Source of the DNA: a virus
Strand: one strand, 5' to 3'
Virus record (IMG/VR): IMGVR_UViG_3300050821_002172
Span: 1 to 26,459 of that record
DNA length: 26,459 nt
The notes below the pieces were generated by a model. It worked only from the letters and a program-made list of their open reading frames with translations. It did not search any database and had not been told where the DNA came from. Positions 5,418-26,080 of this stretch are shown here, one piece after another; the first letter of the stretch is position 1; each line of letters opens with the position of its first letter. The position numbers were made by a program, and so were the translations under genes.

Positions 5418-5419
5418 TT

Positions 5420-5425
5420 CTCCTT
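5420..5425 (-). promoter_or_regulatory. Shine-Dalgarno of fibre B
   Basis: The minus strand reads AAGGAG two bases before the ATG at 5417. The spacing is short, but the site together with the match to fibre A decides the start in favour of 5417 over an upstream in-frame TTG at 5459. The site falls between the TAA of the partner-protein gene and the fibre B start. Confidence 0.65.
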
Positions 5426-5919
5426 TAAGAATTGCGAAGCTTATGAGTCGCGATCCCAACTCGCACTGGCATAACTAGCGTCAAACCGGCTGGCGGCGCT
5501 GGCCATGGCGGAATACCGACCGGTGGGATATATATAACAAGCTGGTTGAAATTTAATGTTTTTATATTGGCAATTTCATTATCTCTAAAAGCGTTAACCG
5601 CCGCAACCCAGTCCATCATTGCTTTGGCATTCGTCCAAGCAGTTCCAGATGTCTGTGTCGCCAAAATATAAAGAGAGTTTCGCTGCAAATCATTTGGTGC
5701 ATATTTACTAATTAAGTCTCTTGCCAAACCGGTCACAGGACCAGAAATCCTTGTGCGCAAACCCGGCTGTGATATGCCAACGCTACCGTATCCGCCTTTA
5801 ACCGGGTGAACAATCGTATCATCAAGTGGCAGCGGGTCTGCTGCCCAATCCCCGTTGTCATACTGGATTATATTTATATAGTATCTTGAATCTGGTCTGT
5901 CGTGAGTAATGATTGGCAT
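5425..5919 (-). CDS. Fibre-partner protein, copy A
   Basis: This 164-residue protein starts at the ATG at 5919, 2 bases after the fibre A stop. An in-frame GTG at 5970 would extend it into fibre A, but the paralogue at 3048-3506 begins exactly at the equivalent M(P/A)IIT. The DLQRNSLYILATQTSGT, NAKAMMDWVAAVNAFRD and PPWPAPP blocks are nearly the same as in copy B. The C-terminus is 15 or so residues longer than in copy B (VMPVRVGIATHKLRNS). No export signal or membrane segment is seen. Its position directly behind fibre A mirrors the copy B arrangement, so I infer a fibre-specific chaperone or accessory subunit. It might instead be a stoichiometric structural protein. Confidence 0.82.
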   Translation of the reverse strand: MPIITHDRPDSRYYINIIQYDNGDWAADPLPLDDTIVHPVKGGYGSVGISQPGLRTRISGPVTGLARDLISKYAPNDLQRNSLYILATQTSGTAWTNAKAMMDWVAAVNAFRDNEIANIKTLNFNQLVIYIPPVGIPPWPAPPAGLTLVMPVRVGIATHKLRNS

Positions 5920-5921
5920 GG

Positions 5922-9492: not shown

Positions 9493-10005
9493 TCAAATCC
9501 TTACACCTTCCCATAGTGATTCAAACTGTAACTCAATAGCTGGCTCAGGCCCACGATAAATTCTTATCGAAGATTCAATTGTTTGTTGATCTTTACGTAC
9601 GGAAACAACTTCAAATGTTGAGCAAATTCTGTTGTCAACAAACGGCTGCAAACATGCTCTGATATAATTATTCACCAATGCAATCGTGGCACCCCGCTGC
9701 GCGTTTGGCCCTTCAATCTTACTACGCCGCAGCAGCCATAACTTACTGCCAATTGGCCAAGCTCCCCAGATTTCTTGGGCGTCGAGGTCTCCCCACCAGC
9801 CTTGGCGGTCAGTACTGTCAGGGTCAGGCAATGGTTCACTTACATCGGCCAATGCATTAGTACCCAACGCAATGCACACCGCAGTAGCCAGGGCGTAACG
9901 GTCGTCTAAGGTGCCATCCTGCAGCAAGTTCCAGTCAAGGGTAACACTGTAACGCGGGTAAACCGCGTTCTGCTTTAAGTAAATATCGGGTACTTTGCTT
10001 GGCAT
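9493..10005 (-). CDS. Mu gp46-like baseplate wedge protein (GP46)
   Basis: This 170-residue protein shows the GP46 family pattern: DWNLLQDGTLDDRYALATAV near residue 24, a DRQGWWGDLDAQEIWGAWPIGSKLWLLRRSK block at ~66-97, then a helical ALVNNYIRACLQPFVDN stretch and a final beta strand. The family is functionally equivalent to T4 gp25 and P2 gpW and starts sheath polymerisation from the baseplate. It sits between the spike and J genes as in Mu. A 135-base gap with a hairpin separates it from the spike gene, the largest gap in the window. The ribosome site is G-rich and poor (GGGGCGGCATAA before ATG), so its expression may rely on the preceding structure or on coupling. Confidence 0.93.
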   Translation of the reverse strand: MPSKVPDIYLKQNAVYPRYSVTLDWNLLQDGTLDDRYALATAVCIALGTNALADVSEPLPDPDSTDRQGWWGDLDAQEIWGAWPIGSKLWLLRRSKIEGPNAQRGATIALVNNYIRACLQPFVDNRICSTFEVVSVRKDQQTIESSIRIYRGPEPAIELQFESLWEGVRI

Positions 10006-10092
10006 TTATGCCGCCCCTACCATGCCCAAGTGCCCACGGGTGCCCTTTGCCGGGGCAGTCCGCAGCCATCTACAGGTTGTGACCGCCACCGC

Positions 10093-10110
10093 ATTAGGCG
10101 CCCGCCTAAT
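10093..10110 (-). other. Perfect inverted repeat in the spike-gp46 gap
   Basis: ATTAGGCG, two bases, then CGCCTAAT: an 8-base perfect inverted repeat (7 pairs with a realistic 4-base loop) 31 bases after the spike stop. No U run follows, so it is not a clear intrinsic terminator. The surrounding 135 bases are GC-rich and also contain several GTGCCC/GGGCAC segments that could pair. A 37-codon minus-strand ORF crosses it, but I see no support for that being a gene. Confidence 0.5.
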
Positions 10111-10140
10111 CGGCTCTTGGAACAAACCATGAACTACAGG

Positions 10141-11052
10141 TTAGCCAATACGTCCCATGCCATTAATTGATGGTCCCGCCAGCGTAAGTATTTTTGAAAA
10201 CTTGTGCTTGTCCGGTGTGCCACCAACATAATCTTTTCCGCTGCTTGACTCATGCAGCACGTCATCATCTTCCTTGCTGGTGCTCAGCCTTACTTTTTTG
10301 CCACTGGAAAGTCTAGCCTCGGCGGACTTAACATGCATAAAATCCGCACTGTTAGCGCCCGCACCATTAACAGCCTTCTGCCCAGTTTTCTTGGAGGCAC
10401 CCGGATCACTACCTTGCTGACCACCACTACTGCCACCGTTTGCCGTCGCTGCAACATGTGGCCCTTCTAATCGGTCTAATTCTACTTGCAATTGTTGTTG
10501 TAGTTCTGGTTCTAACCCAGCCCATAGGCGCGCTTCAATGTGAGTGCCATGTTTAGCATACAAGCTTTGTTTGGCTTGGCTTGCTTGAGCTTTACTTTGT
10601 GGCGGATTGGCCTTGCCACTGCCCGCTGGTACCAACTGACACCGCACCATTTGGGGGGCACTATGATACATGCCGTCACTAGCAAGATGAACTTGCATGT
10701 CATCACTATTGCCACGATTCATCATTGAATCGCCTTCGCTTAATCCTCTACAACGATGACGCCTGTCATCAACAGGCCCCATCGCCGGGAAACTGCGATT
10801 GCCGCCTTGGTAAGAAACAAATGACTCCGCACTAGCAATGGTGGTGCCTTGCCCGTCCTTGTCAGCCTGGAAATTGTGTGAAGTAAATCCGTAGTTCTGT
10901 GGGCATTCAATAGCGTCACGGGATTCGTTTGCCTGCATGTCGGCATGGCATGCCTGCATCAGGCTATTGTCATCCATTGTATTAATGGTGGCACGCGACC
11001 CACCTGCACTATAGCCACGTAATGAAGAAGAAGCTGGTGTTGCCCTATGCAT
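10141..11052 (-). CDS. Mu gp45-like tail spike (membrane-puncturing) protein
   Basis: This is a 303-residue protein, against about 200 for Mu gp45. Residues ~13-140 match the family: RATINTMDDNSLMQACHADM, then NESRDAIECPQNYGFTSHN, then FVSYQGGNRSFPAMGPVDDR with RHRCRGLSEGDSMM and the beta-helix-like LHLASDGMYHSAPQ region. In Mu this trimer forms the needle at the baseplate centre. The C-terminal ~160 residues are different: a Gln-rich helical part (SQAKQSLYAKHGTHIEARL, ELQQQLQVELDRLEGPH), then Gly/Ser/Lys-rich low-complexity sequence. I do not see a typical His-x-His iron-binding tip, so the puncturing end may be built differently. AGGAA lies 8 bases before the ATG, inside the tail of the hub gene region. 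Confidence 0.9.
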   Translation of the reverse strand: MHRATPASSSLRGYSAGGSRATINTMDDNSLMQACHADMQANESRDAIECPQNYGFTSHNFQADKDGQGTTIASAESFVSYQGGNRSFPAMGPVDDRRHRCRGLSEGDSMMNRGNSDDMQVHLASDGMYHSAPQMVRCQLVPAGSGKANPPQSKAQASQAKQSLYAKHGTHIEARLWAGLEPELQQQLQVELDRLEGPHVAATANGGSSGGQQGSDPGASKKTGQKAVNGAGANSADFMHVKSAEARLSSGKKVRLSTSKEDDDVLHESSSGKDYVGGTPDKHKFSKILTLAGPSINGMGRIG

Positions 11053-11055
11053 TTT

Positions 11056-12291
11056 TCATTTCCTTCGCTGAGGAGGAGTTGGAGTTGTGCCTATGTCACC
11101 CGAACCAAGCTGTTGACCAAGCGTTGCGCGTATATCGCCAAGCCCAAGCTGTTGACCAAGGCCCGGTGCAGTACCAGTTGGCGTTGGCGCAGGTGCAGGT
11201 TGCTCTGGTATATTTTCCGGTTGCGCTGCGCCCAGCGGGTTGCCAACGTTTGCATTGGTCTGATCATTAAGCCCATACGGCTGCACCAACTCCAGCGTCG
11301 TCGTGGTGCCGCTATTATTGTCTTGTTGAAACGTAACTGTCTTGGCCTTCAACACACCTGTAATCATTGCCATTGGACAATGCACACTAACCAAACCGCC
11401 AGCCTGCCATAGATTGCCGCCCTGTGTGAACCAACCTTGCACGGTGCAATTAGCTGTTATCTTAGTTGCTTCGGTCCATTGCCGCTCAGCCAATGCGCGC
11501 CGTTGCGCGGCACCCTGGTCAGGCGGTGGATGCTCCATTGGTATAACCAACATGGAGTTACGTGGCGCCGTACCGTTTGTATGCCCCTTTATTTGACTTG
11601 CCTGAGTACCATTATTTTGATCGTCACCTTGATTCATAGCGGTAACGTTAATGTTCTTGTGCAAATCCTCACAGGTAATCGTGCACTGCATGCTCAATAC
11701 ATTGATGCCATCCTGTACACTACCCATGATTTTACTTTGGTGCTTACCAATAATTTGCGGCAAGCCCGCCCTATTGGTGCCAAGGATAATATTTTTCTCA
11801 CGAGCCAGTTGTTCTAAGTAATCCCAGATCTTCATTCCAATCTCGGCTTGCGCTTTCTTAAATGGTGAACTGTCTGGCGTTCCTACAACCACCGCACCGC
11901 CATAGTCCTTCAAAACAATTTGTGCTATCTGTACAAAATTCATCCCATCAAAATTGCCATTGTCAGTAAACACACTAGACTTGTACGGAAAGAAACTGTA
12001 TGTCTTACCAGTCAACTGCACCATGTGCTGCGTAGCATTGTAACTGGCTTGCCGCGTAATAATCGTGCCACCTTCAATAACCTTTTCACCACCAAGGATA
12101 ACTTCAACATCATCACCTGGGGAAAATTGTGCATCAGACCAACTAGTAGGCAATATGCGCCCCTCATTAGCCGTAAACCTGAACAATGAAAACGATTCGG
12201 TCCAACGTTCCTGCACCCATACCGACTCCCATTCAGTATAATTCTGACCGTCAACAATCAATGTTGCTTGCTCTGAAGGTGGCCAACTCAT
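11056..12291 (-). CDS. Baseplate hub protein (Mu gpP/gp44, P2 gpD-like)
   Basis: This 411-residue protein lies between the circularisation genes and the spike, the exact place of Mu gpP. Visible family features are the early beta domain (ATLIVDGQNYTEWESVWVQ, FRFTANE), PGDDVEVILGGEKVIEGGTI, the ARE-type region WDYLEQLAREKNIILGTN near 150, QWTEATKITANCTVQGWFTQGG and LWQAGGLVSVHCPMAMI. These proteins form the trimeric hub to which the spike binds and correspond to T4 gp27. After residue ~345 comes a Pro/Thr/Gly-rich extension with a 13-residue tandem repeat (378-390 and 391-403) and a basic end (PPQRRK), not expected in the core family. The start is an ATGA overlap with the upstream gene. Confidence 0.93.
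   Translation of the reverse strand: MSWPPSEQATLIVDGQNYTEWESVWVQERWTESFSLFRFTANEGRILPTSWSDAQFSPGDDVEVILGGEKVIEGGTIITRQASYNATQHMVQLTGKTYSFFPYKSSVFTDNGNFDGMNFVQIAQIVLKDYGGAVVVGTPDSSPFKKAQAEIGMKIWDYLEQLAREKNIILGTNRAGLPQIIGKHQSKIMGSVQDGINVLSMQCTITCEDLHKNINVTAMNQGDDQNNGTQASQIKGHTNGTAPRNSMLVIPMEHPPPDQGAAQRRALAERQWTEATKITANCTVQGWFTQGGNLWQAGGLVSVHCPMAMITGVLKAKTVTFQQDNNSGTTTTLELVQPYGLNDQTNANVGNPLGAAQPENIPEQPAPAPTPTGTAPGLGQQLGLGDIRATLGQQLGSGDIGTTPTPPQRRK
11105..11160 (-). repeat. 39-base tandem repeat in the hub C-terminus
   Basis: A 17-base sequence (CCAAGCTGTTGACCAAG on the plus strand) occurs at 11105-11121 and again at 11144-11160. The period is 39 bases, equal to 13 codons, so the frame is kept. 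The protein repeat is LGQQLG(L/S)GDI followed by three variable residues. Such a tract can expand or shrink by slippage without breaking the gene. Confidence 0.8.
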
Positions 12292-12956
12292 GCAGAAAGT
12301 GCCTGCCCTATAGCGGGTGCAAAAGCCGGATGGACAATTTTATTTTCATCACGCACTTGGTCAGCCCGCCCAGCATCGGAATAAAGTTTATAAGCCATTA
12401 CCAACGTAGTAGAAGGTCCAATAAATTGAAAAGTAAGCATTTGTGGCAATGGCCTTTGCGTGGTAACAAGGTGATTAACAATTGAACCACGCAACCTCAC
12501 CAAAATTTGAAATTCCATTTGTATCATGTCATCGGCAGCTTGTTCTTCAGCATCTAAAAACGGTTGTTGAATTTCCTCTTTAACAATATCTACATCCTGC
12601 CTACTAACAAATGTCATATTAACTATTATTACACATTCATAAGCCAAACAAAATCTAATAATACTATTTTGTACAAGCAAGCCACCAAGAGTAATTGGAG
12701 TTTCCTGTGAAACTAGATTACGCACATGGTCAAGCTGCGGATATGTAGCACCGGCTAGATTGATCAAATTAAAACATTGATCTAGCTCTGGCCCCAATGT
12801 ATTGGCACGCAACCATTCATAAGCATGAGCTATCGTGTCCCCAATCTGCGTGCGCGCATCAATCCCTAGACGACCTTGTGCATTAATAGTGCGCAGTAAA
12901 TTCTGGCAGCAGCGCACTACAATAGGAGCCGCCTCCAGCGCATCAGTTTTATTCAT
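12288..12956 (-). CDS. DNA-circularisation protein, C-terminal half (split Mu gpN-like)
   Basis: This 222-residue protein continues the family that starts in the upstream gene. The C-terminus LVMAYKLYSDAGRADQVRDENKIVHPAFAP is the known end of Mu gpN-type 'DNA circularisation' proteins, and the middle (PFLDAEEQAADDMIQMEFQILVRLRGSIVNHL) fits the helical part that precedes it. In most phages both halves form one protein of about 400-500 residues. Here the DNA_circ_N domain ends with a stop and this gene starts through an ATGA overlap, so both halves should be made together. The family is now seen as a tail/baseplate component despite its name. The middle of the gene is very AT-rich (14 G+C of 60 in bases 12601-12660). 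I see no sign of decay. Confidence 0.85.
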   Translation of the reverse strand: MNKTDALEAAPIVVRCCQNLLRTINAQGRLGIDARTQIGDTIAHAYEWLRANTLGPELDQCFNLINLAGATYPQLDHVRNLVSQETPITLGGLLVQNSIIRFCLAYECVIIVNMTFVSRQDVDIVKEEIQQPFLDAEEQAADDMIQMEFQILVRLRGSIVNHLVTTQRPLPQMLTFQFIGPSTTLVMAYKLYSDAGRADQVRDENKIVHPAFAPAIGQALSA

Positions 12957-13591
12957 TGTGCGTCTGCCAACATTAAAAGAATTTGGTCTCGTAATTCGGT
13001 TGAATTATTAAGCACACTGGTGCGCGTATCCGCAAGCACAAACGGGTAACTACCCGCTTCACGGAAGTGCATGTCAAACACCGCATAACCACCAAATTTT
13101 TCTTGCTCAGTGATGCGATAGCGCTCGCAAAATACAATGAGGCTGGGCAACGTTTGCACCTGCAACGGGAATGGGCCACCCTTATCAAGCTCACGTATAA
13201 GGGCGTCACGTGCGTTACGGTAGTCACGTTGATAAAGTAAATTGCCAGCGACATTGGTCGGGTACACTATGACGTAACCACGCACCTCCCAAGTAATGGC
13301 ACGGTGGCCCATGTCTTCACAGTACGGAAGATCACGCTTCGGGAATTCATGCTCTACAAGTCTACGGCCAGACTCCATACTGTGTTGCTCACAATGGAAC
13401 GTTGCTCCGTTAAAGCTGGCTGGCACCAACGTGTCCCGCCATGTTGTATTGGGTAGTTCCATAATTTGAGAGGCATGCGGTCCAGGCGCATACCCCGGCA
13501 CGGGCGGATTACGCGTCTGCCCAGGCTGGGTCTGAGTTTGCAAACCGCTGCCACCAATAGGTGGGCCAACTGCTGGGCCAGGATTAGGCAT
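12953..13591 (-). CDS. DNA-circularisation protein N-terminal domain (Mu gpN-like)
   Basis: This 212-residue protein begins with a ~40-residue Pro/Gly/Gln-rich stretch and then has the DNA_circ_N domain: NTTWRDTLVPASFNGATFHCE near residue 48, ESGRRLVEHEFPKRDLPYCEDMG, ITWEVRGYVI, YRNARDALIRELDKGGPFPL and KFGGYAVFDMHFREAG. In Mu this domain heads the gpN tail protein located in the baseplate. The gene follows TMP2 with no gap (TAA then ATG), with AGGG about 10 bases upstream. It ends in an ATGA overlap with the gene coding for the rest of the family. Length after the extension agrees with a complete domain, so the stop looks like a clean domain boundary rather than a random break. Confidence 0.92.
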   Translation of the reverse strand: MPNPGPAVGPPIGGSGLQTQTQPGQTRNPPVPGYAPGPHASQIMELPNTTWRDTLVPASFNGATFHCEQHSMESGRRLVEHEFPKRDLPYCEDMGHRAITWEVRGYVIVYPTNVAGNLLYQRDYRNARDALIRELDKGGPFPLQVQTLPSLIVFCERYRITEQEKFGGYAVFDMHFREAGSYPFVLADTRTSVLNNSTELRDQILLMLADAQ

Positions 13592-16500
13592 TTAATTTAA
13601 CCCTACTGTGTCACGCCAACTAGTAATTTGCGGGCCATCCGCTGCAGGCAGAAACTGTGTTTGACGATTGTCTGGCACGTCCTTGAACGCGGGCTTACGG
13701 TGCGTAAGGGTTGAACCTTTAGCTTTTGAATGCTTGATTTTGATAGTGCCGCTGGTGTCACCAGTTTGCTTTTGAGTTTCCTTCCCCATCATGCGATCAA
13801 GCGTTGCTCTAGTATCTTCTTTTGGAAAAGTGTCAAATGGACTAGCTGGCGTTGTGTCAGAGGTTGGTAATGCCGCAGAAGTAGGACCAGCGACTTGCGT
13901 AGGAGTAGATGTCGCAGTAGCCAATTGACTAGACAAAGCACCACTTCTAAGTTGCTTGGCGATCACCTCACCTTCATTTTCACGATGACCAGGATTTACT
14001 TCACTGTGACCATAAACCGTATCATCCTTCCAATGATACTTGGCTTTCAAAGTGGCATACAAGCTTTGAATTGCAGCACGTTGTTCAGGTGTCCAATCCT
14101 TATCTTCCTTGCCAATAACTTCAACTCCAAGATAATTCATGTTGCTAATATCATGACGCGGATCACCAGGTGGCAAGAATTTACTAGCTGGCAAAATATG
14201 AGCGCCACGAGCACCTTCAGGCTCAATCTGAACTATTCTACCGGCTTTATCAATAACGTAATTGGAAGAAAGACCTTGTGCACCAAATTCTGTTCTTCCT
14301 TTCAAGACACCTGCAACAGCTTCGGCACTCGCCTCATTGCCACCTGTATGATGCACAATCAAACCTTGCGGGCCACCTGGACCAAACTTGCCAAAATTAC
14401 CCATCCGCAATTGAGCAGATTCATCAACAATATTTGCTCCACCTGGAACTGTAACGGTTCCACCTCCCGCAGCACCAGCAACTTGCGTGCTAGTTCCATA
14501 GGGACCATAACCAACAAATGGATGTGCACCTGCAACAGCGGTGGGAGATGTGGGTACTGCACCAGCTTGACCAGCAATTTGATTTGCCCACGTCATATGC
14601 GCACCAGCTTGACCGCGAGGGCCATGTCGCCATGAGCCAAAGTATCGCCCTGCTCCACCCCATCCACCGCCCGGTCCGGCTCCTGGCTCAGAAAAAACTT
14701 TGTCCGCTGGTATATGTTTGGACCATTGCGCAACCAAAGCATCTAATTGAGAATTTGGATCATTAACAGCGCCCTTAATACCATAATTTCTTAAATCTTT
14801 TTCATTAAATTGATTAAGCCCACCACCAGGAGCATTGGCATTAAATGATGATTCTTGCATTGCGGTTGCTGTGGCCGCGCGCGCGTATTCTTCTGGTGTT
14901 CCACTAACAATGCCGTATTTAGCGCCATCAGTTGGAACATAACCATTCAATGGGGAATTTCTAAATTTTTCAACAGCAGCCTTATAATAAGCGATCGGAT
15001 CAACATGCCCATTCGGCAACGCTGTTAATTTGTCTCCACCTGTAACCCCACCACCAAGACCTCCCGCTCCACCTCCACCTTGCGCTGGCCACTGCATACG
15101 CGGAGCACCAGGGAAACCACCAGTCGTTAAACCACCACCAGACCTAATAGCCCTCATCATAGTGCCGGGTGCCGTGGCAGGGCTTTTAATGTTAGGGTCA
15201 TCCCACGCAGGAGACATGCCCAAACGTGCCGAAGACATATCAATAGCTGGTCCTCCGGGCTCTCCTGGTGCTGCTGGTGCTGTAGGTCCATCAGACGTAC
15301 CGCCTGGACCTCTACCCGTGCCACCTGGACCAGTACCATCACCGCCACCGCCAGCGCCGGGACCTGCACCTCCCATACCTTGTGAAATCTGAGTAACTCG
15401 TGATGGATTTAATATCTGGTCCAATTGATCATTCAACATTCGTAACTGTTTGGTATTGTCTTCCACAGTTTCGGTATGTTTTTGACCACCACTCATTTGG
15501 TCCATCTGGTCCAACGGAATAATAGCTTCCGGGCCAGCTTCACCAACCATACCTACATGTGGTTGCGTAACAATGCCACCTGCTTGATGTTTTGGAACAC
15601 CACCAAACATACCTGCAAATGGATTGCTTATAAGGTTCTGCGTGTTCCATGGCTGATCATATATACTTTTAGGCGCATCCCACATCGCAGCACCATGCGT
15701 CATCCATTTTGACCATGGTGCTTTTTCATTTTCTCTTCTAAATTTTTCAGCTTCATTGCCACTTTTAATAATAACGTCTAAACCCTTATTCCAGATATCA
15801 AGTACTTTGCTAGCCGCAGGCGCCATGCCAGTTTCAAAAATATCAACAATGCGCTGATGTTTCTCAGCGGTCTCTTCTACTTTTTCATTAAACTCATCCT
15901 GTATCTTAGCTTCATATTTCATATTTTCTTGGGTACGCTTGTCAAGCTCATGCAATTGACGCTTTTGGTTAATAAGCTTTTCCATGCCAAATTGCTGCAG
16001 GAGCAAGTATTGCGCATAACGCGCCTGCATTTCGTCATGGGTTTCCCTAAACTTATTAGCATAAACATTCAAACCCATTTCACGAATATAATTGGTACGC
16101 TCAACCGCACCGCGCATATTCGCAAGCTTAACAAGCGCATCAGACATTGCATTTGAAAATTCCGGGCCAGCCATGTTTAATAAACTTTCGCGTAACGCAC
16201 TGCCAGGGCGATTAACCTCTGACATAGCACGCGACAAACTCATCATCATGCTAGCGGCTTGTTGAGCATTTGTGCCTGAGGCTGCCAATTGACTTGAAAT
16301 GCCTCTAAATGCTCCAATACCAACCCCGGAAGCACGCGCGGCGTTATTAAGTTGTACTGCTTGCGCGGACCACTCCTTTAAACTAGCAATAGTGCGTATT
16401 AATTCATAACCGACCGTTGCTATGGCAACTGGCATAGGGCCAATCACCTTGGCAAAGTCCATAGCACTACGGCCAACCCCAAGGAATGACCGTGCCAGGC

Positions 16501-16669
16501 TACCAAAAGCTTTATCGGCCTCAGTTGCTTTAACGGTTGCCTGCCCTAACCCCTGCGCAACCGGGCCACTGCCAATCTGGCTTAATTCCTGACGCACGCG
16601 CGTTAGCTGCGCGCTTGCGCCATCATCAAGCGTTATGCGTAGTTTTAGCTCTTCAACTTCGGTTGGCAT
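13592..16669 (-). CDS. Tape measure protein 2 with transglycosylase-like and amidase domains
   Basis: This is a 1025-residue protein. Residues 1-300 form the helical tape-measure part, which aligns without gaps to TMP1 (51 of the first 100 residues identical; shared LGVG, AKVIGPMPVA, AGPEF, QENM). The motif HVGMVGEAGPEAIIPLDQ at 371-388 is a common tape-measure signature. A Gly/Pro-rich linker follows (430-550). Residues ~590-700 look like a lytic transglycosylase or phage tail lysozyme (TAMQESSFNANAPGGGLNQF, likely catalytic Glu606). Residues ~765-910 are an Amidase_2/T7-lysozyme-type domain: IVHHTGG (His773/774), NYVIDKAGRIVQI, NYLGVEVIG and VYGHSEVNPGH (His888), with Asn-Glu where the family usually has Asp-Pro. 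Role: tail length and local wall opening at injection. Confidence 0.92.
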   Translation of the reverse strand: MPTEVEELKLRITLDDGASAQLTRVRQELSQIGSGPVAQGLGQATVKATEADKAFGSLARSFLGVGRSAMDFAKVIGPMPVAIATVGYELIRTIASLKEWSAQAVQLNNAARASGVGIGAFRGISSQLAASGTNAQQAASMMMSLSRAMSEVNRPGSALRESLLNMAGPEFSNAMSDALVKLANMRGAVERTNYIREMGLNVYANKFRETHDEMQARYAQYLLLQQFGMEKLINQKRQLHELDKRTQENMKYEAKIQDEFNEKVEETAEKHQRIVDIFETGMAPAASKVLDIWNKGLDVIIKSGNEAEKFRRENEKAPWSKWMTHGAAMWDAPKSIYDQPWNTQNLISNPFAGMFGGVPKHQAGGIVTQPHVGMVGEAGPEAIIPLDQMDQMSGGQKHTETVEDNTKQLRMLNDQLDQILNPSRVTQISQGMGGAGPGAGGGGDGTGPGGTGRGPGGTSDGPTAPAAPGEPGGPAIDMSSARLGMSPAWDDPNIKSPATAPGTMMRAIRSGGGLTTGGFPGAPRMQWPAQGGGGAGGLGGGVTGGDKLTALPNGHVDPIAYYKAAVEKFRNSPLNGYVPTDGAKYGIVSGTPEEYARAATATAMQESSFNANAPGGGLNQFNEKDLRNYGIKGAVNDPNSQLDALVAQWSKHIPADKVFSEPGAGPGGGWGGAGRYFGSWRHGPRGQAGAHMTWANQIAGQAGAVPTSPTAVAGAHPFVGYGPYGTSTQVAGAAGGGTVTVPGGANIVDESAQLRMGNFGKFGPGGPQGLIVHHTGGNEASAEAVAGVLKGRTEFGAQGLSSNYVIDKAGRIVQIEPEGARGAHILPASKFLPPGDPRHDISNMNYLGVEVIGKEDKDWTPEQRAAIQSLYATLKAKYHWKDDTVYGHSEVNPGHRENEGEVIAKQLRSGALSSQLATATSTPTQVAGPTSAALPTSDTTPASPFDTFPKEDTRATLDRMMGKETQKQTGDTSGTIKIKHSKAKGSTLTHRKPAFKDVPDNRQTQFLPAADGPQITSWRDTVGLN

Positions 16670-16679
16670 TAATTACACT

Positions 16680-19301
16680 CTATGGTGCGATTTGTGCGCC
16701 AGCAGTCTCTTCAGGCTTTTGTCTTGCCTTTGCAGCATCAGGAGGGCGAGACCTAACTTGTGGTTCTATTAATGGCTGCTGAGTTATCTCACGCTCTTGT
16801 GAATGTTCTGCGTTCTCAAATATCTTACCATCAGTTTCAACAGTTGTTCCTTCCGGTGCATTTTCTTGAACAACCTTTATTTGATTTTTACCATTACCGG
16901 ACCCAACCTCATTGCCCAACAACTTATCAAATCCTTGTCTAGCAGATTCACCAACTTTCCCAGCAAATTTTAAACGCTCAAGCTTTTGCGACAACTCCAA
17001 AAAATTCACAGCTTTAGCTGCCGTTGCTGCTCCCGTAACTGCTGACTCAACCCCGCCACTAGGAGTCCATGGAATAAATGGACTCAACACGTCAGCGACT
17101 ACATTACCCGCTTCACGGCCACCAACTGCGCCGCCAGCAATACGACCAATAGTAGTGTGTTCAACAGCAGAAATTGGTGACATCGCATATTTAAAAGTAT
17201 CCCAACCTGCCTTCCCAACATTTATGGCATTGCCGACCAAACCCGCCGACTCGCTAAGTTTAGAAATAGACCCACGCGCCTGACTACGCGCCGCTGACAT
17301 ATCTCTTTCTATATCTGATAATGGATTTGAAAAATACGGTTGCCAAGTATCCATCTGTTCCTTTGTATGAGGAACTTTTATCATAGATCTGCTTAAACCT
17401 GGAACATTGCTTCGCCCTGTAACAGTACCTCCTTCTGCCATAGCAGGCAGACCGCCAATCGTAACTCCACCTTCACGGGTAGAAGTCAAATAAAGCTTGC
17501 CACCATTTTTCTCTGCCTCCTTCAAATACAATTCACGAAAATGCGGCCATTGTTTTTTATCAACACCAATACAACCTGCAGTATAAAGTTGATCTAACTT
17601 ATTAGCATTTTCAGGATGAAGCTCTACACCAGTACGGTCTCTATTTAAAAGTGGATCATGAACAACATTGCCTGTACCTAAAATATCTGAAATTCCAGCA
17701 ATGGCTTGCTTCTTATGACCAGTTGCTCCAATTTCATTTGTAAGTGAATAAACGCCATACGGTAATGATGGCGAACTTGGCATGCCGCTCCCACCACGAA
17801 ACGTTTCACCACCTATACTGACCTGCGCCTCATAGTGTGCAGGGCGGTCTTTTTGGTCAGCGAATGCACCAAGCTTTGGTGACCCATCCGGGTTAAGCGG
17901 GATAACTGTTTGTGTGCCTTGATCACCACCAAGTGTAGTAATTGTTGGTTTAGTAACAACAGTAGAACCTTGCTCACCAACAATCGCCTCCGGACCTTTT
18001 TCACCAACCAAAGCTTTAGTCGGTCCTTTAATAACACCACCCTTCGCATATTTCTTAGGCACCAATGGCGTTGTCTTAGGATCTACAAGCAACTTTTGAA
18101 CGTTGCCACTGAGGCGTTGTAACTCCTTGGTATTTTCTTCAGTTGTCTGAGCAGGCTTGCTACCACCACCAAAAATGCCACTAAGACCGCCTTCCATAAC
18201 TCTCTCAGTAAGACCCTTGGTGCCTGTAGCTTTATTACCCATGAAAAAATCATGATAGGCAGCAGCAGCCCCAGCCCCTACTGTAGTAGCTCCGGTTGCC
18301 GTAGCCGCTTTGCCAAACGGACTACCCTGATTAACCCCACCAAAAATCCAAGTTATTTGACTTGTCCTAACCAATTCCTCTTGTTTTTCTAACCACTCAA
18401 CTAAAGGCCCAGCAACAAAATCCGTCTGCTTAAGCAGCCACGTTCCAGCGACAGCTAACTGAGTCTTAGTAATGTCAGCGATACGCCCACGTTTATAAGC
18501 TTCATCAGCTTGAGCGTCAGTAAGCTCTTCAAATTTTTTCGCTTCCCAAGCCATATTTTCTTGACTAAGCTTATCCTGCCGCAAAGCAAAATCACGCAAT
18601 CCATTTAATTCTTCAGAGTCAAAAATCATCAACACTTGGTCACGCTTATATGCGGCCAACATTTGGTCTCCAGACCGCGCCATCTCATTACGAAATGCAT
18701 TATTTGAAATCGTATAAACATACTTCAAACGTTCACTAGCAGTTGTCAACCCTCTAAGATGCTCAATCGCATTAAACATATTGCCCGCAAACTCAGGCCC
18801 AGCAATTTGCAATAACTGCTCACGCCGTTGACTGCCAACCATCATCACTTCAGTATAAGCACGGCTAAACTTGGCAAGTAGGTTACCCGCACCTTCTGCG
18901 GAAAGGCCCACAGTTTTTAAACTAGAAACAATTTCTTTAAATTCACCAAAATTAATCCCGGCCATACGCGCTGCATTGGCCGTAGCCTGCATTTGCTCAC
19001 CCCAAGACTTTGCCGCTTCACTAGTGCGTATTGTTTGGTAAGCAAGCACACCGAGTGCCACTGGCATTGGGCCAATGACCTTGGCAAGCTCCATACTGGC
19101 TTTGCCAACACCAAGCGCGGACCGTGTCAAACTACCAAGGGCACGGTCAAACTCACTTATGCGCCCGGTGATTTGACTAAGGTCACTACCACTACCGCTG
19201 CCCCCGAGCCCACTAAGAGTTTGCTTAATTTGCTGTAGCTGCGCGGTGGCTTGATCATCAAGCGTTACGCGTAACTCTAACTCTTGTTGCTCAGTCGCCA
19301 T
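16680..19301 (-). CDS. Tape measure protein 1 with L,D-transpeptidase-like domain
   Basis: This 873-residue protein starts right after the chaperone frame, the normal tape-measure position, and overlaps the frameshift product by 11 bases. Residues 1-300 are helical and homologous to TMP2. KGGVIKGPTKALVGEKGPEAIV at 420-441 is the tape-measure signature. Residues ~490-617 form a compact domain with LPYGVYSL, TGVELHPENANKLDQLYTAGCIGV and GGKLYLT; His562 and Cys577 occupy the His/GCI positions of YkuD-type L,D-transpeptidases and similar small phage domains. The enzyme class is inferred from this motif only. Residues ~690-770 are Gly/Ala-rich and hydrophobic (IAGGAVGGREAGNVVADVL) and may insert into membrane. 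The last 70 residues are hydrophilic. It ends 10 bases before TMP2. Confidence 0.9.
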   Translation of the reverse strand: MATEQQELELRVTLDDQATAQLQQIKQTLSGLGGSGSGSDLSQITGRISEFDRALGSLTRSALGVGKASMELAKVIGPMPVALGVLAYQTIRTSEAAKSWGEQMQATANAARMAGINFGEFKEIVSSLKTVGLSAEGAGNLLAKFSRAYTEVMMVGSQRREQLLQIAGPEFAGNMFNAIEHLRGLTTASERLKYVYTISNNAFRNEMARSGDQMLAAYKRDQVLMIFDSEELNGLRDFALRQDKLSQENMAWEAKKFEELTDAQADEAYKRGRIADITKTQLAVAGTWLLKQTDFVAGPLVEWLEKQEELVRTSQITWIFGGVNQGSPFGKAATATGATTVGAGAAAAYHDFFMGNKATGTKGLTERVMEGGLSGIFGGGSKPAQTTEENTKELQRLSGNVQKLLVDPKTTPLVPKKYAKGGVIKGPTKALVGEKGPEAIVGEQGSTVVTKPTITTLGGDQGTQTVIPLNPDGSPKLGAFADQKDRPAHYEAQVSIGGETFRGGSGMPSSPSLPYGVYSLTNEIGATGHKKQAIAGISDILGTGNVVHDPLLNRDRTGVELHPENANKLDQLYTAGCIGVDKKQWPHFRELYLKEAEKNGGKLYLTSTREGGVTIGGLPAMAEGGTVTGRSNVPGLSRSMIKVPHTKEQMDTWQPYFSNPLSDIERDMSAARSQARGSISKLSESAGLVGNAINVGKAGWDTFKYAMSPISAVEHTTIGRIAGGAVGGREAGNVVADVLSPFIPWTPSGGVESAVTGAATAAKAVNFLELSQKLERLKFAGKVGESARQGFDKLLGNEVGSGNGKNQIKVVQENAPEGTTVETDGKIFENAEHSQEREITQQPLIEPQVRSRPPDAAKARQKPEETAGAQIAP

Positions 19302-19913
19302 CTTCCGTACTGGCTTCCCGTTGCATCATGCTGGCAAGCTGCAAAGTGCGCCGCATATGCAGCGTTACTTCGCCAACGGTCATCGCTAAAAACACATCAG
19401 GAGCTTGGTGATAAAACCGGGCTAGCCGGTAACAGTCCAAGATCAAGGTGTCGTCGTAGCCGACAACCACGCTCGGGGATCGGGGGCGAAAAAATGGCGG
19501 AGCCTATAGGCGCAGGAGTTCCAGTCACGTGGATCCAACATTTCCAAGTATGGCGGCAATACACCACTAAGTGCAGCCATAATGTAATGCATCTTACGCT
19601 CTTCGATAATGACTTCACCTTCTTGGTTCACCCGACATGGATTACCATAGCGATTGATATCACCACCACGCGGTTCACGGAAACTAAGCTCAGTGTACGT
19701 AGGGCCACCAGGGATCACCAACGGCTTGTACAGCAGCCTTACAACCACTGGCCAAGTGTCCTGTGCAATCTCAATAGCAGGCGCGGCTGCGACTGCATCA
19801 AGTTCAACAGGACTTGGCTCAAGCTCCGGCGGCGGCATACCTGCCGGAACCTGCTGGGCTTTAGGGTCAACGAACCCTTCTTTAAACCCCGCTTGATTGG
19901 GTCGCTCGTTCAT
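19291..19913 (-). CDS. Tail assembly chaperone, -1 frameshift product (E+E' / gp41-42 type)
   Basis: This is the predicted long form, 207 residues: 142 zero-frame residues up to the slip site at 19494-19488, then 65 residues in the -1 frame ending at TGA 19291-19293. The -1 segment is open across the whole interval and reads as real protein: VVVGYDDTLILDCYRLARFY, then MTVGEVTLHMRRTLQLASMM. The 'MT.GE' motif is typical of the second chaperone part in P2 (E') and Mu. In these phages the short form and the long form are made at a fixed ratio and fold the tape measure for tail assembly. Place (between tube and tape measure) and slip site agree. The end overlaps the TMP1 start by 11 bases. Confidence 0.88.
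19443..19913 (-). CDS. Tail assembly chaperone, short form (Mu gp41-like)
   Basis: This is the 156-residue zero-frame product. Residues ~1-45 are a flexible Pro/Glu-rich start. The domain at ~50-142 reads WPVVVRLLYKPLVIPGG, TELSFREPRGGDI, then a helical MHYIMAALSGVLPPYLEMLDPRDWNSCAYRLRHFF, which fits Phage_TAC_7/gp41-type chaperones. After the slip site the zero frame adds only 14 residues. The ribosome site is near-ideal (AAGGAGG, then 5 bases, then ATG), consistent with high expression. Tube gene stop lies 9 bases upstream. The short form is expected to be made in excess over the frameshift form. Confidence 0.9.
   Translation of the reverse strand: MNERPNQAGFKEGFVDPKAQQVPAGMPPPELEPSPVELDAVAAAPAIEIAQDTWPVVVRLLYKPLVIPGGPTYTELSFREPRGGDINRYGNPCRVNQEGEVIIEERKMHYIMAALSGVLPPYLEMLDPRDWNSCAYRLRHFFAPDPRAWLSATTTP
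19488..19494 (-). promoter_or_regulatory. Programmed -1 ribosomal frameshift site TTTTTTC
   Basis: On the minus strand the zero-frame codons are CAT TTT TTC, giving the heptamer T TTT TTC, which allows both tRNAs to re-pair one base back. The site sits at codons 141-142 of the chaperone and joins it to a -1 frame that stays open to 19291. Downstream there is only a modest candidate stem (GTCG GCTA CGAC, about 25 bases later). I did not find an obvious pseudoknot. Confidence 0.87.
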
Positions 19914-19922
19914 GTAACCTCC

Positions 19923-20303
19923 TTAGAAACCAACCCCACCAGTCTGAATTTCCTGGCAGGTTAAGCCCTCCCAACGCACGCGCACTTGACCGTCACGTGT
20001 ATTGGCTTCAAAGCCGCCCTTACAGGTGGCACCGGTCAACGTGTAGGTCGTATAGTTCGCAAGCTGCGCCACTACCGTGGAGTCAGTTTGCGTAATCAAC
20101 GCTTCCAGGGACAATCCTGGCACCGTTGAAATATCTCCCTCGATGTAGGGGACGCGCGGCAATTCTTGATATCCATGGACGCCATCTTGTCCGGCAATCA
20201 TAGTCCTTTCCACCGGACTTGGACTTACGGTAAAGTTGCCACGCAGTGCGTATTGATTGCCATCAACACTCAAGAATGCCGTTCCGGCTATTCTCTGTGC
20301 CAT
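19923..20303 (-). CDS. Tail tube protein (Mu gpM family)
   Basis: This 126-residue protein is the usual length for Mu-type tube subunits. The pattern AGTAFLSVDGNQYALRGNFTV at the N-terminus, GYQELPRVPYIEGDIS in the middle and TLTGATCKGGFEANTRDGQVRVRWEG towards the end is characteristic of the family. Subunits stack as hexameric rings to form the inner DNA-conducting tube. It directly follows the sheath gene, as in Mu and P2. Its ribosome site is strong (AAAGGAG, then GCGACT, then ATG). A GC-rich hairpin lies about 30 bases upstream, between sheath stop and tube start. No anomaly in the protein. Confidence 0.95.
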   Translation of the reverse strand: MAQRIAGTAFLSVDGNQYALRGNFTVSPSPVERTMIAGQDGVHGYQELPRVPYIEGDISTVPGLSLEALITQTDSTVVAQLANYTTYTLTGATCKGGFEANTRDGQVRVRWEGLTCQEIQTGGVGF

Positions 20304-20373: not shown

Positions 20374-22191
20374 TTAAGCCGCCTGAGAAGCCGCGTTGAA
20401 CGGTCCAGTGGTTGGGCCAATAATTTCTGCGTCGATGCCCCTATTGTACTGTAATCTGAACTGCGCGAGCACCGCGAAAATTCGTAACTGATTGATCAAA
20501 TCAGGTGGGTAAAGGACGTTGAGCCGATTCGGATTATCCGGGTCACGCTCCACCAGCAAGTGCGCCTTAAACGCCTGCAGGTTTTCCACCAAGCCGTCAT
20601 ACATGTCCTGTATGTACTGATTGATCAATTCAGCCTTGACAAGAATAGGTGTCACTATCGCCTGTCCAGGGCCAAATTTCGTTCCATCGTCGGCGAGTTT
20701 ATGCCTCGGGAATTTCGACTCAATGGCGTGCTTCTGATTACGCAAAAGCTTGGCCAAAGTAGCAAGCGTCGTCACGAGTTCATATGCGTCGTCAGAATCT
20801 CCATAAAGATTCAGTTGATAGGTTGTTTGCTCCCGTAGAATCATAGGCTGGTTGTCACTACCGGCACGCTGGATGGCAATGCCAGTGCTAGCCAAGCTGT
20901 TCAATTCCACAAAGTCAAACCGCTCATGCTTGGGCGCCATCTTGATCTGGTTAAGGCTGAGCGACTGCAGCGGACGAGCAGGATCGTTGATGAGAGCTCG
21001 CTGAGCTTTCGCACAGTAGGCGGCAGCCCATTCAAAGTTCGGCGACGGGCTTTGCATTTCAAAGCCCATAACGCTGACCAAACCACTGTTCATGGTTTCA
21101 CCAAACAGCAGCAAGTCCGCGTAAGTACCACGCTTGGCCGTGAACACATGGCCAAACAATTCGCGTTGCCAACCCCATCTTCCCGTGTCAGTAAATCCAT
21201 ATTCCAGGTCGAGGTTGAACAAGCTTTCGCTATCCGTATATGGGCAACAAGCGTATTCATACGGCTCTTCGCCCATGTTTATAATGGCATTGTCAAGCTG
21301 CGGTGTGCCCGTGCCACCAGTAAGGAAGCTAGTCGGAGGCATCATAATGCCAAGCCCTACGGGAGTTTGCTCACCACCACGGCTACCGTAGTAATTCATT
21401 GACACTTGAATTTCATTACCACCGACACCCTTCCAAAGCGTAGTAAGAGTAATTACACCTGCAGCCGCGCTAGCACTAACTGCGATACCAACAGTGTCAT
21501 TTATTTCTGCCTCAATCGCAGCAGCGATGTCAGTAACAGTATCAGTGGGAGAAATGTTTATCGGCACATACTCGCCACCGACGTACAAATGGATGGTCCC
21601 AGCCGCAGTGGGCGGCGCCGTAACTGTAATGGTTCCATGCGCTGCAACCGCACCTGTCGGTTGCTTAAGACCTACGCCCCAGACTTCATTCGCAAAATTG
21701 TTGGCATAGAACGCCTTGAACATTCTGGAGAGTTCAGACCCCTGTCCAAAATTCTGGTCAGCCTGCATCTGGCTGCCAATCGGGATCGGCACATCCGGCG
21801 CGGCAACACCACCACCGGGCGTATTGACCCACGTCAAGGTAAACGTAGCATTGATGCCATTGCCGCTGGTCCCGATTTGCGGCTGCGGACCAGTAGGCGG
21901 CGTCACCGCACTACCGCCATCAATAATATCCACGGTGGCCACACCGCCAGTCGCGACAGTCTTGACCTTCAATGTGACATTATTGTCCAAGTTGATAATG
22001 TCATCAACAATGTAGCCCGTACCCGGTGTGGCAGCCACCGCAGTGCCAACTGTGTTGATAGGATCAAACATCGTACCAAACAAAATGGCACGCAAATTTA
22101 TTGACGGAAGTCCTGCCTGAGAAGGGTCCACTTCGACCCAGTAAAGAGGGACTTTGATATTCGCGGGGATTTGGGCAAATGAAATCGGCAT
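20374..22191 (-). CDS. Tail sheath protein (Mu gpL-like) with inserted beta domain
   Basis: This is a 605-residue protein, about 110 longer than Mu gpL. It starts with the conserved sheath head (PANIKVPLYWVEVDPSQAG, NLRAILFGTMFD). Sheath sequence resumes at ~128 with APDVPIPIGSQMQADQNFGQGSELSRMFKAFYANN, WGVGLKQP and ITVTAPPTAAGTIHLYVGGEYV. The rest is typical (ALINDPARPLQSLSLNQIKMAP, TTYQLNLYGDSDDAYELVTT and the end LRIFAVLAQFRLQYNRG). Residues ~48-122 are an extra domain with GTGYIVDDIINLDNN, VKTVATGGVATVDIIDGGS and GTSGNGINATFTLTW, a beta-repeat I know from phage fibres. It falls in a surface-loop position, so it probably decorates the outer sheath. GGAG lies 8 bases before the ATG. Confidence 0.93.
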   Translation of the reverse strand: MPISFAQIPANIKVPLYWVEVDPSQAGLPSINLRAILFGTMFDPINTVGTAVAATPGTGYIVDDIINLDNNVTLKVKTVATGGVATVDIIDGGSAVTPPTGPQPQIGTSGNGINATFTLTWVNTPGGGVAAPDVPIPIGSQMQADQNFGQGSELSRMFKAFYANNFANEVWGVGLKQPTGAVAAHGTITVTAPPTAAGTIHLYVGGEYVPINISPTDTVTDIAAAIEAEINDTVGIAVSASAAAGVITLTTLWKGVGGNEIQVSMNYYGSRGGEQTPVGLGIMMPPTSFLTGGTGTPQLDNAIINMGEEPYEYACCPYTDSESLFNLDLEYGFTDTGRWGWQRELFGHVFTAKRGTYADLLLFGETMNSGLVSVMGFEMQSPSPNFEWAAAYCAKAQRALINDPARPLQSLSLNQIKMAPKHERFDFVELNSLASTGIAIQRAGSDNQPMILREQTTYQLNLYGDSDDAYELVTTLATLAKLLRNQKHAIESKFPRHKLADDGTKFGPGQAIVTPILVKAELINQYIQDMYDGLVENLQAFKAHLLVERDPDNPNRLNVLYPPDLINQLRIFAVLAQFRLQYNRGIDAEIIGPTTGPFNAASQAA

Positions 22192-23958: not shown

Positions 23959-24584
23959 ACCCAAATCCTCATATAGTGATAAAGCAAATCCTTCACAGCC
24001 TGTGCCGCTGCACCAAATGGCGTACCACCAGTTTGTTTCAACAACACATTTGGATCAAAAAACATGACCCGCGCTTCCTTATGACTAAGGCTGCGTATGC
24101 CGGACGTTAATTGCCGCGCTATCCACAACCGATAATTACGGATCATAATTTCACAAGCTGCCTTCAATGCTGGTGGTGCATCATCAGGCAACAAATAGCC
24201 ACCCGTATAAGTCACACTGATTGGCTCATCCTGCCCAGCGAACAAACTAAGCTTGCCACTGGCTACTTCAAGTTCCCATTGTGATGGGTCATAAGGCGTA
24301 CCACGCGGGCACTCAACCGCCGTTATGTCAGCGGCCTTTGTGGGCCAATGCGAAAGGTACACTCGCCGTGAGTCCAGGTCGCGCCAAGTTTCCTGTACTT
24401 CTTCTTTCGCAAAACAACGATTGCACTCCGTGGCAATTACATCCGACATTACTGTAATCTGATTTTGTAATTGGGCGTCTTGACTAGTATCAGTGTCCGG
24501 AATCTTAAGAGCCTCTTTCATTTCTTCCAACGACATTAAATCAAACGTCGTGGCTGGCGTTATGATGTTAATGATACTGTCCAT
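23955..24584 (-). CDS. Head-tail connector, HK97 gp6-like
   Basis: This 209-residue protein has the classic gp6/gp15 pattern: DLMSLEEMKEALKIPDTDTSQDAQLQ followed by the long helix ITVMSDVIATECNRCF, then a beta domain with DSRRVYLSHWP, GKLSLFAG, ISVTYTGGYLLPDDAPPALKAAC and a final helix. The pattern 'TYTGGY.LP.DAP.ALK.A' is characteristic. It forms the ring beneath the portal. The C-terminal part (SHKEARVMFFDPNVLLKQTGG, AAQAVKDLLYHYMRIWV) is also family-like. The start shares one base with the preceding stop (TAATG), so it is probably coupled to the collagen-like gene, which here separates it from the portal. Confidence 0.9.
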   Translation of the reverse strand: MDSIINIITPATTFDLMSLEEMKEALKIPDTDTSQDAQLQNQITVMSDVIATECNRCFAKEEVQETWRDLDSRRVYLSHWPTKAADITAVECPRGTPYDPSQWELEVASGKLSLFAGQDEPISVTYTGGYLLPDDAPPALKAACEIMIRNYRLWIARQLTSGIRSLSHKEARVMFFDPNVLLKQTGGTPFGAAAQAVKDLLYHYMRIWV

Positions 24585-26080
24585 TAGCGCGTCTCAATCT
24601 GGAATTGCTCAAAAAGCTCGCGCAGATTAAGCTCTACCTCATTGCCATCAGACATGACGGCAACTACGCCATAATTTTCACGGTTTATTTTCCAGGCAAG
24701 AATGGTCGCACCCGTGTCACCTTGCGGCCCTCTAGCGCCAGGCTCGCCTCTTGGTCCGGTGGGGCCAACCTTGCCAATCTTGCCAGCACTAGCAATTAGC
24801 TGCCAACCATCACCAGGGCATTTACCAGGAGCAGAGCATTTAGCTATAAAACTAGAACCATTAAGCGCCACCACATCATAGCGAACATAAACAGTTTTTT
24901 CGTCATATGTTCCAGTGATTTGTGGCGTGGCGCCATCTACCCCTTTAGCTGACAAGCAAATCCAGTCTTCGCCATCTGGTGACTGAGCCGTGTCCTTAAG
25001 TGCTTGGTACGTCGCACCCGCATAAGTTACAACGTCAGCGGCGTAATGCACCGCGCCAGCCTTGTAAGCTTTCACAACAGGCAACTTACCAGGCATGCCT
25101 TGCGGACCATGGTCACCTTTTTCACCACGCTCACCGGGTAAGCCACGCGCACCATCCTTGCCGTCTGCGCCAGTTTTCCCAACCAAGCCCGGTATGCCTT
25201 GCTCACCGCGCTCACCTTTTTCACCACGTGGGCCAGGTATGCCCGGAATGCCATCTTTTCCCACCAGGCCGGGTACACCTTGCTCGCCACGGTCGCCCTT
25301 TGGTCCGGGGTCACCTTGCCAACCAGGTGCGCCAGGTGCACCGTCCTTACCCACCAGGCCAGGCATGCCTTGTGGTCCGGGATCACCCTTTTCACCGGGC
25401 AGGCCATCGTTACCTTTTTCACCGGGTAGCCCGTTACTGCCATCCTTACCGTCGGCTCCAGGCGCCCCAGGCAAGCCCGCTGGGCCACTGTCACCAGGGG
25501 CGCCACGCTCACCAGGGAGACCCTGCTCGCCGCGCGCACCGGGCACGCCATCGGCGCCAACAGACCCTTGGGCGCCAACTTCCCCTTTTGCACCCTGCTC
25601 ACCGGGCGAGCCTTGCGGCCCAGGTGGCCCTATACCACCAACGACGCCAGGGTCGCCCTTCTGCCCCATAGGCCCAGGCAGGCCAGGGTCGCCTTTGTTG
25701 CCGTGGTGGCCCATGCTGCCCGTCAGGCCCTGCTTGCCCTCAACGCCTTGCGGCCCAGGTGGCCCTACTTCACCAGGCAAGCCTTGCGGACCTTGAGCGC
25801 CATCCCGCAGCTCGCGCAGGCGCGCGGCAAATTCATTTTGTAGCTTGGTTACAGTGTCAGCAACCGTGGCACTAAGCTCAGCGCGCAAGGTAACATTTTC
25901 TGTACGCAAGTCTGCAATCGTGCGGCCAAACTCAGCTATGATCAACGCACGCTCACGCTGCCACTGATGCTTTTCAAAGGCAATAGTTTCAGCGAGTATT
26001 TCGCGCAGTGCTTCAACCGGATAGGCGTCGTCCGGCACGCTCAACGGAGTTTCGTAATTTTCCGATTTCGGCTGCAACAT
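24584..26080 (-). CDS. Collagen-like protein with coiled coil and CBM5/12-like modules, in the head cluster
   Basis: This is a 498-residue protein. Residues ~20-92 form a charged coiled-coil-like helix (EALREILAETIAFEKHQWQ ... LQNEFAARLRELRDG). Residues 94-333 are 80 uninterrupted Gly-X-Y triplets with many GLPGE(K/R) and GLVGKDG units, consistent with a stable triple helix of about 70 nm if fully extended (about 0.29 nm per residue). Residues ~336-380 and ~390-433 are two related modules with spaced aromatics (YKAG..., DVVTYAG.TYQA, W; then YDVVALNGSSFIAK, GDGW) like chitin-binding CBM5/12 folds. A last G-X-Y patch leads to a compact C-terminus (AWKINRENYGVV, LNLRELFEQF), likely a trimerisation cap. 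It overlaps the portal end by 68 bases and the gp6-like start by 1. Probably a virion surface fibre. Confidence 0.9.
   Translation of the reverse strand: MLQPKSENYETPLSVPDDAYPVEALREILAETIAFEKHQWQRERALIIAEFGRTIADLRTENVTLRAELSATVADTVTKLQNEFAARLRELRDGAQGPQGLPGEVGPPGPQGVEGKQGLTGSMGHHGNKGDPGLPGPMGQKGDPGVVGGIGPPGPQGSPGEQGAKGEVGAQGSVGADGVPGARGEQGLPGERGAPGDSGPAGLPGAPGADGKDGSNGLPGEKGNDGLPGEKGDPGPQGMPGLVGKDGAPGAPGWQGDPGPKGDRGEQGVPGLVGKDGIPGIPGPRGEKGERGEQGIPGLVGKTGADGKDGARGLPGERGEKGDHGPQGMPGKLPVVKAYKAGAVHYAADVVTYAGATYQALKDTAQSPDGEDWICLSAKGVDGATPQITGTYDEKTVYVRYDVVALNGSSFIAKCSAPGKCPGDGWQLIASAGKIGKVGPTGPRGEPGARGPQGDTGATILAWKINRENYGVVAVMSDGNEVELNLRELFEQFQIETR

Follow-up and report, generated by a model that had tools for sequence, protein, structure and literature searches.

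A 26,459-base IMG/VR fragment of a soil phage (IMGVR_UViG_3300050821_002172, here called the window) carries two tandem tape measure genes, TMP1 and TMP2, whose products are by their sequences true paralogs and probably, at somewhat better than even confidence, combine into a hetero-oligomeric tape measure within a single contractile tail. The adjacent tape pair is kept in many related uncultured phages, in which tube, sheath and frameshifted chaperone are each present once. A more specific version, to which slightly less than even confidence is given, is an obligate two-protein tape in which the paralogs would co-assemble, the two halves of an ancestral hub-docking cap and the enzymes being shared out between them, and with their ruler ends matched by concerted evolution. 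On the minus strand, the main tail genes run from the head-tail connectors through sheath, tube, chaperone, TMP1, TMP2, DNA_circ, hub and baseplate wedge to the fibres; the features discussed below are the following.

20374..22191, minus strand: tail sheath, single copy, 80% in the relative G001
19923..20303, minus strand: tail tube, single copy, 93% in G001
19443..19913, minus strand: tail assembly chaperone (PF10109), the sole chaperone found for both tapes
19488..19494, minus strand: slippery heptamer T_TTT_TTC for the -1 frameshift of the chaperone
19291..19442, minus strand: chaperone extension in the -1 frame, which overlaps the start codon of TMP1
16680..19301, minus strand: TMP1 (copy a), ORF of 873 aa, paralog of TMP2, with orthologs in L003, L004 and L014
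18432..19301, minus strand: TMP1 N-terminal tape domain, residues 1-290, predicted all-helical
17892..18044, minus strand: TMP1 residues 420-470, beta-rich segment (from the model) with the GEKGPEAI motif (from the sequence)
17442..17861, minus strand: TMP1 cassette, residues 481-620, with a His...GCIGV motif, possible L,D-transpeptidase
16788..16898, minus strand: TMP1 A-type C-terminal cap (ENAPEGTTVETDG...), residues 802-838
13592..16669, minus strand: TMP2 (copy b), ORF of 1025 aa, with orthologs in L003, L004 and L014
15800..16669, minus strand: TMP2 N-terminal tape domain, residues 1-290, predicted all-helical, with weak PF20155 (TMP_3) and phrog_2013 matches
15521..15544, minus strand: TMP2 GEAGPEAI motif, residues 376-383 (BLASTP alignment and sequence)
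14555..15007, minus strand: TMP2 helical cassette, residues 555-705, with an ESSFN...GLNQF motif, possible lysozyme/transglycosylase
13994..14371, minus strand: TMP2 Amidase_2 domain, residues 767-892 (PF01510, E 2.6e-17)
13622..13741, minus strand: TMP2 B-type C-terminal cap (...PAFKDVPDNRQTQFLPAADGP), residues 977-1016
12953..13591, minus strand: DNA_circ_N / baseplate hub protein N-part, the first gene past the tapes (PF07157, E 7e-16)

An earlier note on this DNA had described two tandem tape ORFs between a chaperone and a circularisation gene, and both ORFs are present, 10 nt apart, with PF10109 upstream and PF07157 downstream. TMP1 is the long gene directly past the tube and the -1 frameshifted chaperone, as tape genes are, and TMP2 lies directly next to it; the canonical T_TTT_TTC heptamer is kept in nearly all relatives inspected. 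The claimed paralogy is strongly supported by a BLASTP match of 216 bits (E 2e-62) between the two proteins, which over residues 1-290 align without a gap, as had been noted, at 40.7% identity; the hand count of 51 shared residues proved exact, the first 100 columns of the alignment containing 51 identities. Both tape signatures, GEKGPEAI in TMP1 and GEAGPEAI in TMP2, are also where they were said to be, and weak RcGTA_tape matches in relatives cover a motif of this type. Known tape families give sub-threshold matches only, namely TMP_3 to TMP2, TMP_2 to L087_b (1.9e-6) and PhageMin_Tail to L003_a, L014_a and L024_a, where a and b denote the two copies of a locus. The reported divergence past residue 290 is not simple, in that two later segments, an N-T-K-x-L helix and the cap at the very C-terminus, also have related counterparts in the single tapes of relatives. 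An assembly artefact was discounted on the grounds that the copies are too different and that the arrangement recurs in independent contigs.

For full-length TMP1 and TMP2, overall confidence in the structure models is low (mean pLDDT 58-59). In these models both N-terminal domains are helical with good confidence from about residue 90 onwards, their helix boundaries being nearly identical, and higher values are found at TMP1 residues 110-230 (pLDDT 84-97), in the GEKGPEAI-bearing segment of TMP1, which is modelled as a confident beta segment (pLDDT mostly 83-92), and at TMP2 residues 551-650 (pLDDT mostly 86-96). Both models have the mainly helical, extended N-terminal part known from tape measure proteins; a PDB structure search with the two models returned no significant match to a solved fold.

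Other phages with two adjacent homologous tapes were looked for and found. A scan with a tube profile yielded 349 related places, 80 of which were kept (first set), and a scan with DNA_circ yielded 285, again with 80 kept (second set). Both tapes are complete at 24 loci, the window included, mostly between the conserved tube gene and DNA_circ. Two tapes occupy that interval at 14 loci of the first set (the window, L003, L004, L014, L015, L019, L024, L026, L031, L037, L042, L074, L082 and L087) and at L122, L130, L133, L161, L164, L165, L172 and L175 of the second, and both tape genes of L112 are complete as well. In a 72-kb relative, G001 (IMGVR_UViG_3300021478_000023), the tail module is the same: a single tube, a single sheath and both of these tapes. 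About 29 first-set loci, including Bradyrhizobium prophages, have one tape at the equivalent position, and all Bradyrhizobium tape matches among 196 genomes are one per prophage. No tandem matches that would mark two-tape prophages were present in the sampled 196 Bradyrhizobium, 397 order-level and 385 class-level genomes, tblastn of either tape against 50,697 phage records gave no match, and TMP1 had no match in plasmids.

Inactivation of one ORF in related genomes, raised beforehand as an outcome that would undo the two-tape idea, was not seen: no complete pair has an interrupted gene, and in pairs of related loci dN/dS is well below 1 for a as well as b, with values of about 0.06 (a) and 0.04 (b) over the first 300 codons of L047/L055. 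By this measure both copies are under purifying selection.

The two ends of the paired tapes evolve differently. The last ~50 residues of paired tapes fall into two families that are conserved across lineages and unlike each other, such that the mean cap z between lineages is 3.3-12.0 for a-a and 4.1-16.3 for b-b comparisons, whereas the group-mean z for a vs b of the same phage is 0.3-3.0. A single tape has a cap with both halves, GKISVDVNAPKGTxVxAEGGGLFK-xVEINRQTQMxPAxxGP; in pairs, the first half is found mainly on one copy and the second mainly on its partner. With profiles of the half-caps, which score low for many members, the best first-half and second-half scores fall on different copies in 18 of the 24 complete pairs, loci that are not phylogenetically independent; a stricter sign statistic gives 15 of 24, and six (L019, L037, L082, L087, L155 and L165) have no clean signal of complementarity. 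Gene order is reversed in L133 and L164 with cap complementarity kept, and a strict tie between cap type and gene order is therefore rejected. Two apparent single tapes with B-type caps, L124 and L174, start near a contig end, so that an upstream partner may have been cut off. The tape of phage JBD30 docks in the baseplate with its last 33 residues (PMC11445458), and the caps described here would likewise dock in the hub. The pair of L155 (1616-5941 and 5948-9994) is unusually long for tape-like proteins, at 1441 and 1348 aa, and its two caps still seem alike, perhaps an early stage of cap divergence.

Between the tape part and the cap lies a swap zone, where a given cassette occurs on a, on b or on single tapes, depending on the phage; two cassettes that are joined on the single tapes L007 and L041 are carried one per copy in the pairs L003 and L024. 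Wall enzymes confirmed by Pfam include, in pairs, Amidase_2 (TMP2 and L014_b), Phage_lysozyme (L026_b and L082_b) and Peptidase_M23 (L037_b), and, on single tapes, CHAP (L008) and Phage_lysozyme2 (L009); M15 matches in the tapes of relatives are below cut-off. The amidase domain claimed for TMP2 is well founded, its Amidase_2 (N-acetylmuramoyl-L-alanine amidase) profile scoring 63.8 bits against a curated cut-off of 26. The transglycosylase-like domain claimed for the same protein is less certain. The corresponding cassette (residues 555-705) is also found in L014_b and L031_a, has a high-confidence predicted fold and weakly matches the tail lysozyme domain of L009, but a Pfam search gave no match; its motif, its conservation and the confident helical prediction make a lysozyme or transglycosylase assignment only suggestive.

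The cassette of TMP1 (residues 481-620) has the His...GCIGV motif on which an L,D-transpeptidase-like domain had been proposed, and the motif is kept in one relative, L014_a, the only other tape to have this cassette (at 59-61%). Searches of Pfam and the PDB gave no match, nor did a profile comparison with YkuD, and further examples were sought in viral contigs, which gave only L014 again, and in 61 Bradyrhizobium genomes, which gave none. A comparison with Tlde1 profiles gave a local match with a score of 20.8, against a maximum of 18.1 for shuffled sequences (P 0.007). Because this match is weak and limited to the GC motif and the next helix, the L,D-transpeptidase label is only suggestive, and neither a YkuD nor a Tlde1 identity was accepted for the cassette.

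The history of the pair differs between the two ends of the protein. In a tree of 63 N-terminal domains, a and b cluster by phage lineage, and a topology that unites all a copies in one clade is rejected (p 3e-54); N-terminal scores in lineages I and II are likewise higher for a-b of the same phage (522 and 511) than for a-a across lineages (374). One ancient a/b split for the whole protein is thus rejected by the N-terminal part, though the caps resemble two old families. On a phage tree built from sheath, tube and DNA_circ, at least four changes are needed to explain the two-tape state: there is a main two-tape clade (the window, L003, L004, L014, L024, L015, L017, L019, L031/L033 and L042), a second clade with the single-tape sister L032, and two isolated loci. 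For the large clades, the simplest account of these sequences would be an old duplication with distinct caps followed by repeated homogenisation of the tape part; the alternative would be repeated duplication with parallel cap divergence. A stretch of the L003 pair (10001-12736 and 12740-15736) around codons 300-330 has 76% DNA identity between a and b, vs 43-69% in most windows of that comparison, and may be a tract of gene conversion. L073 (10292-12334 and 12349-13116), one of the two isolated loci, lies inside a single-tape clade and is a recent tape duplication, with 82% N-terminal identity and dN/dS of about 0.2; its second copy runs off the contig.

How might two such proteins share one tail? 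In a hetero-oligomeric tape, the N-terminal parts would pack together as a helical bundle in the tube, for example as three copies of each, and packing in one bundle would explain why the N-terminal parts stay alike. Each of the two C-terminal ends would have its own docking site on the baseplate hub, and a single tape would contact both sites through its composite cap; matched N-termini would then be a requirement of one bundle, and complementary caps a requirement of two docking sites. On injection the two proteins would exit the tail together, bringing along both sets of peptidoglycan-cutting enzymes. Such a system could have originated from a single tape gene, similar to the one in the Bradyrhizobium prophages, that was duplicated in tandem; cap halves and enzymes would then have been divided between the copies, and the N-terminal part homogenised later. 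The earlier note had raised hetero-oligomeric tapes as one of three possibilities, and complementary caps and matched N-termini lend this one indirect support. A shared ruler length is without support, as total lengths of a and b are uncorrelated across phages (r 0.08), and the position of a mid-protein helix, as a measure of ruler length, was usable in four pairs only.

The main rival is a division of labour in which one protein would be the true tape and the other a tape-derived enzyme, hub-bound or carried in the lumen and injected, that does not set length. This arrangement is rather unlikely, although the uncorrelated full lengths of a and b would suit it, as would lineages III and IV, where Pfam recognises Phage_lysozyme, M23 and M15 (M15 below cut-off) on copy b and none on copy a. 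Both copies have the full helical N-terminal domain, matched within each phage, and the tape part is not visibly lost in complete pairs with a profile match on both copies; copy a, moreover, also bears a cassette in lineages I and L024. Of the split between ruler and enzyme roles that had been envisaged, what stands is that enzymes and end caps are divided between the copies, not that there is one ruler and one enzyme.

A third suggestion, that the two genes encode alternative tapes, one protein per tail, and so give two tail lengths or injection modes in one phage population, would be in keeping with the differing lengths and enzymes of TMP1 and TMP2. It is disfavoured, and improbable, given that the genes lie 10 nt apart in the same direction with a single chaperone, that casual inspection noticed no switch, and that the caps are complementary rather than equivalent, so that a single-tape cap is complete on neither copy by itself. 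Independent recent duplications without function, on their way to being lost, would account for a locus such as L073 and for the several changes that the phage tree demands; the retention of pairs across large clades, strong purifying selection and conserved caps make this very improbable in general, and the conservation of both genes in L003, L004 and L014 contradicts it for the lineage of the window. A hetero-oligomeric tape is thus the reading preferred here.

Enzyme-bearing tape measures, tape trimers and frameshifted chaperones are already known. Cultured phage SfV (NC_003444) has the same order of sheath, tube, chaperone, tape, DNA circularisation, hub and baseplate genes but a single tape, orf14 of 611 aa, so that the window, with two paralogous tapes, departs from the canonical SfV/Mu-like tail module in this respect. 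The Bradyrhizobium prophages L007-L009 are closer, with a syntenic tail module, a tube at 82-85%, a homologous N-terminal tape part and C-terminal cap, and enzyme cassettes in common with the pairs; unlike the window, each has one tape, with a cap that contains both halves. The tape measure protein gp95 of phiCbK contains a CHAP peptidoglycan-cutting domain (PMC3556154), and mycobacteriophage TM4 is mentioned in the same paper as having a tape measure with a muralytic domain; in both the enzyme is on one tape, whereas in the window two tapes share them out. In JBD30 the tape proteins form a trimer with C-termini docked in the baseplate (PMC11445458), and in myophage A-1(L) a six-fold bundle, of which three distal ends were modelled (PMC10966104), a bundle that suggests the 3+3 arrangement considered above. 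All tape copies of these two phages come from one gene, whereas two gene products are proposed here. No description of tandem paralogous tape genes, or of a conserved pair with split caps, was found in the literature searched, most subscription journals lying outside it.

The number of tape proteins per tail and the arrangement of their ends at the hub are only partly known in general. With two distinguishable tapes, each position could be separately tagged, deleted or cross-linked, so that the two-tape family would allow direct tests of stoichiometry, symmetry and the separation of ruler and enzyme, with single-tape sister phages as a natural control; an obligate two-protein tape, if real, would be a naturally occurring heteromer of tapes in defined stoichiometry.

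Several further features of the tail module were observed in passing. The Mu-type DNA circularisation/hub protein is encoded by two adjoining genes (12953-13591 and 12288-12956) that match opposite ends of phrog_184, a split also present in single-tape Bradyrhizobium prophages. A second tandem duplication in the window concerns a tail/fibre-like protein of ~590 aa (3675-5459 and 5922-7694, copies 42% alike), whose small partner is duplicated too (3048-3506 and 5425-5970, 51% between copies); G001 has only one gene of each. Two collagen-like proteins with tail-fibre-type repeats are encoded at opposite ends of the window (1150-2556 and 24584-26080), the latter gene directly upstream of the head-tail connector genes. 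Finally, the sheath is about 600-624 aa long in most two-tape phages (the window at 20374-22191, L015, L019, L024, L026, L031, L037, L074, L082, L087 and L172) and about 520-538 aa long in almost every complete single-tape relative, with L073, L122, L130 and L133 as two-tape exceptions to the longer form and with sheath inserts that vary between lineages.
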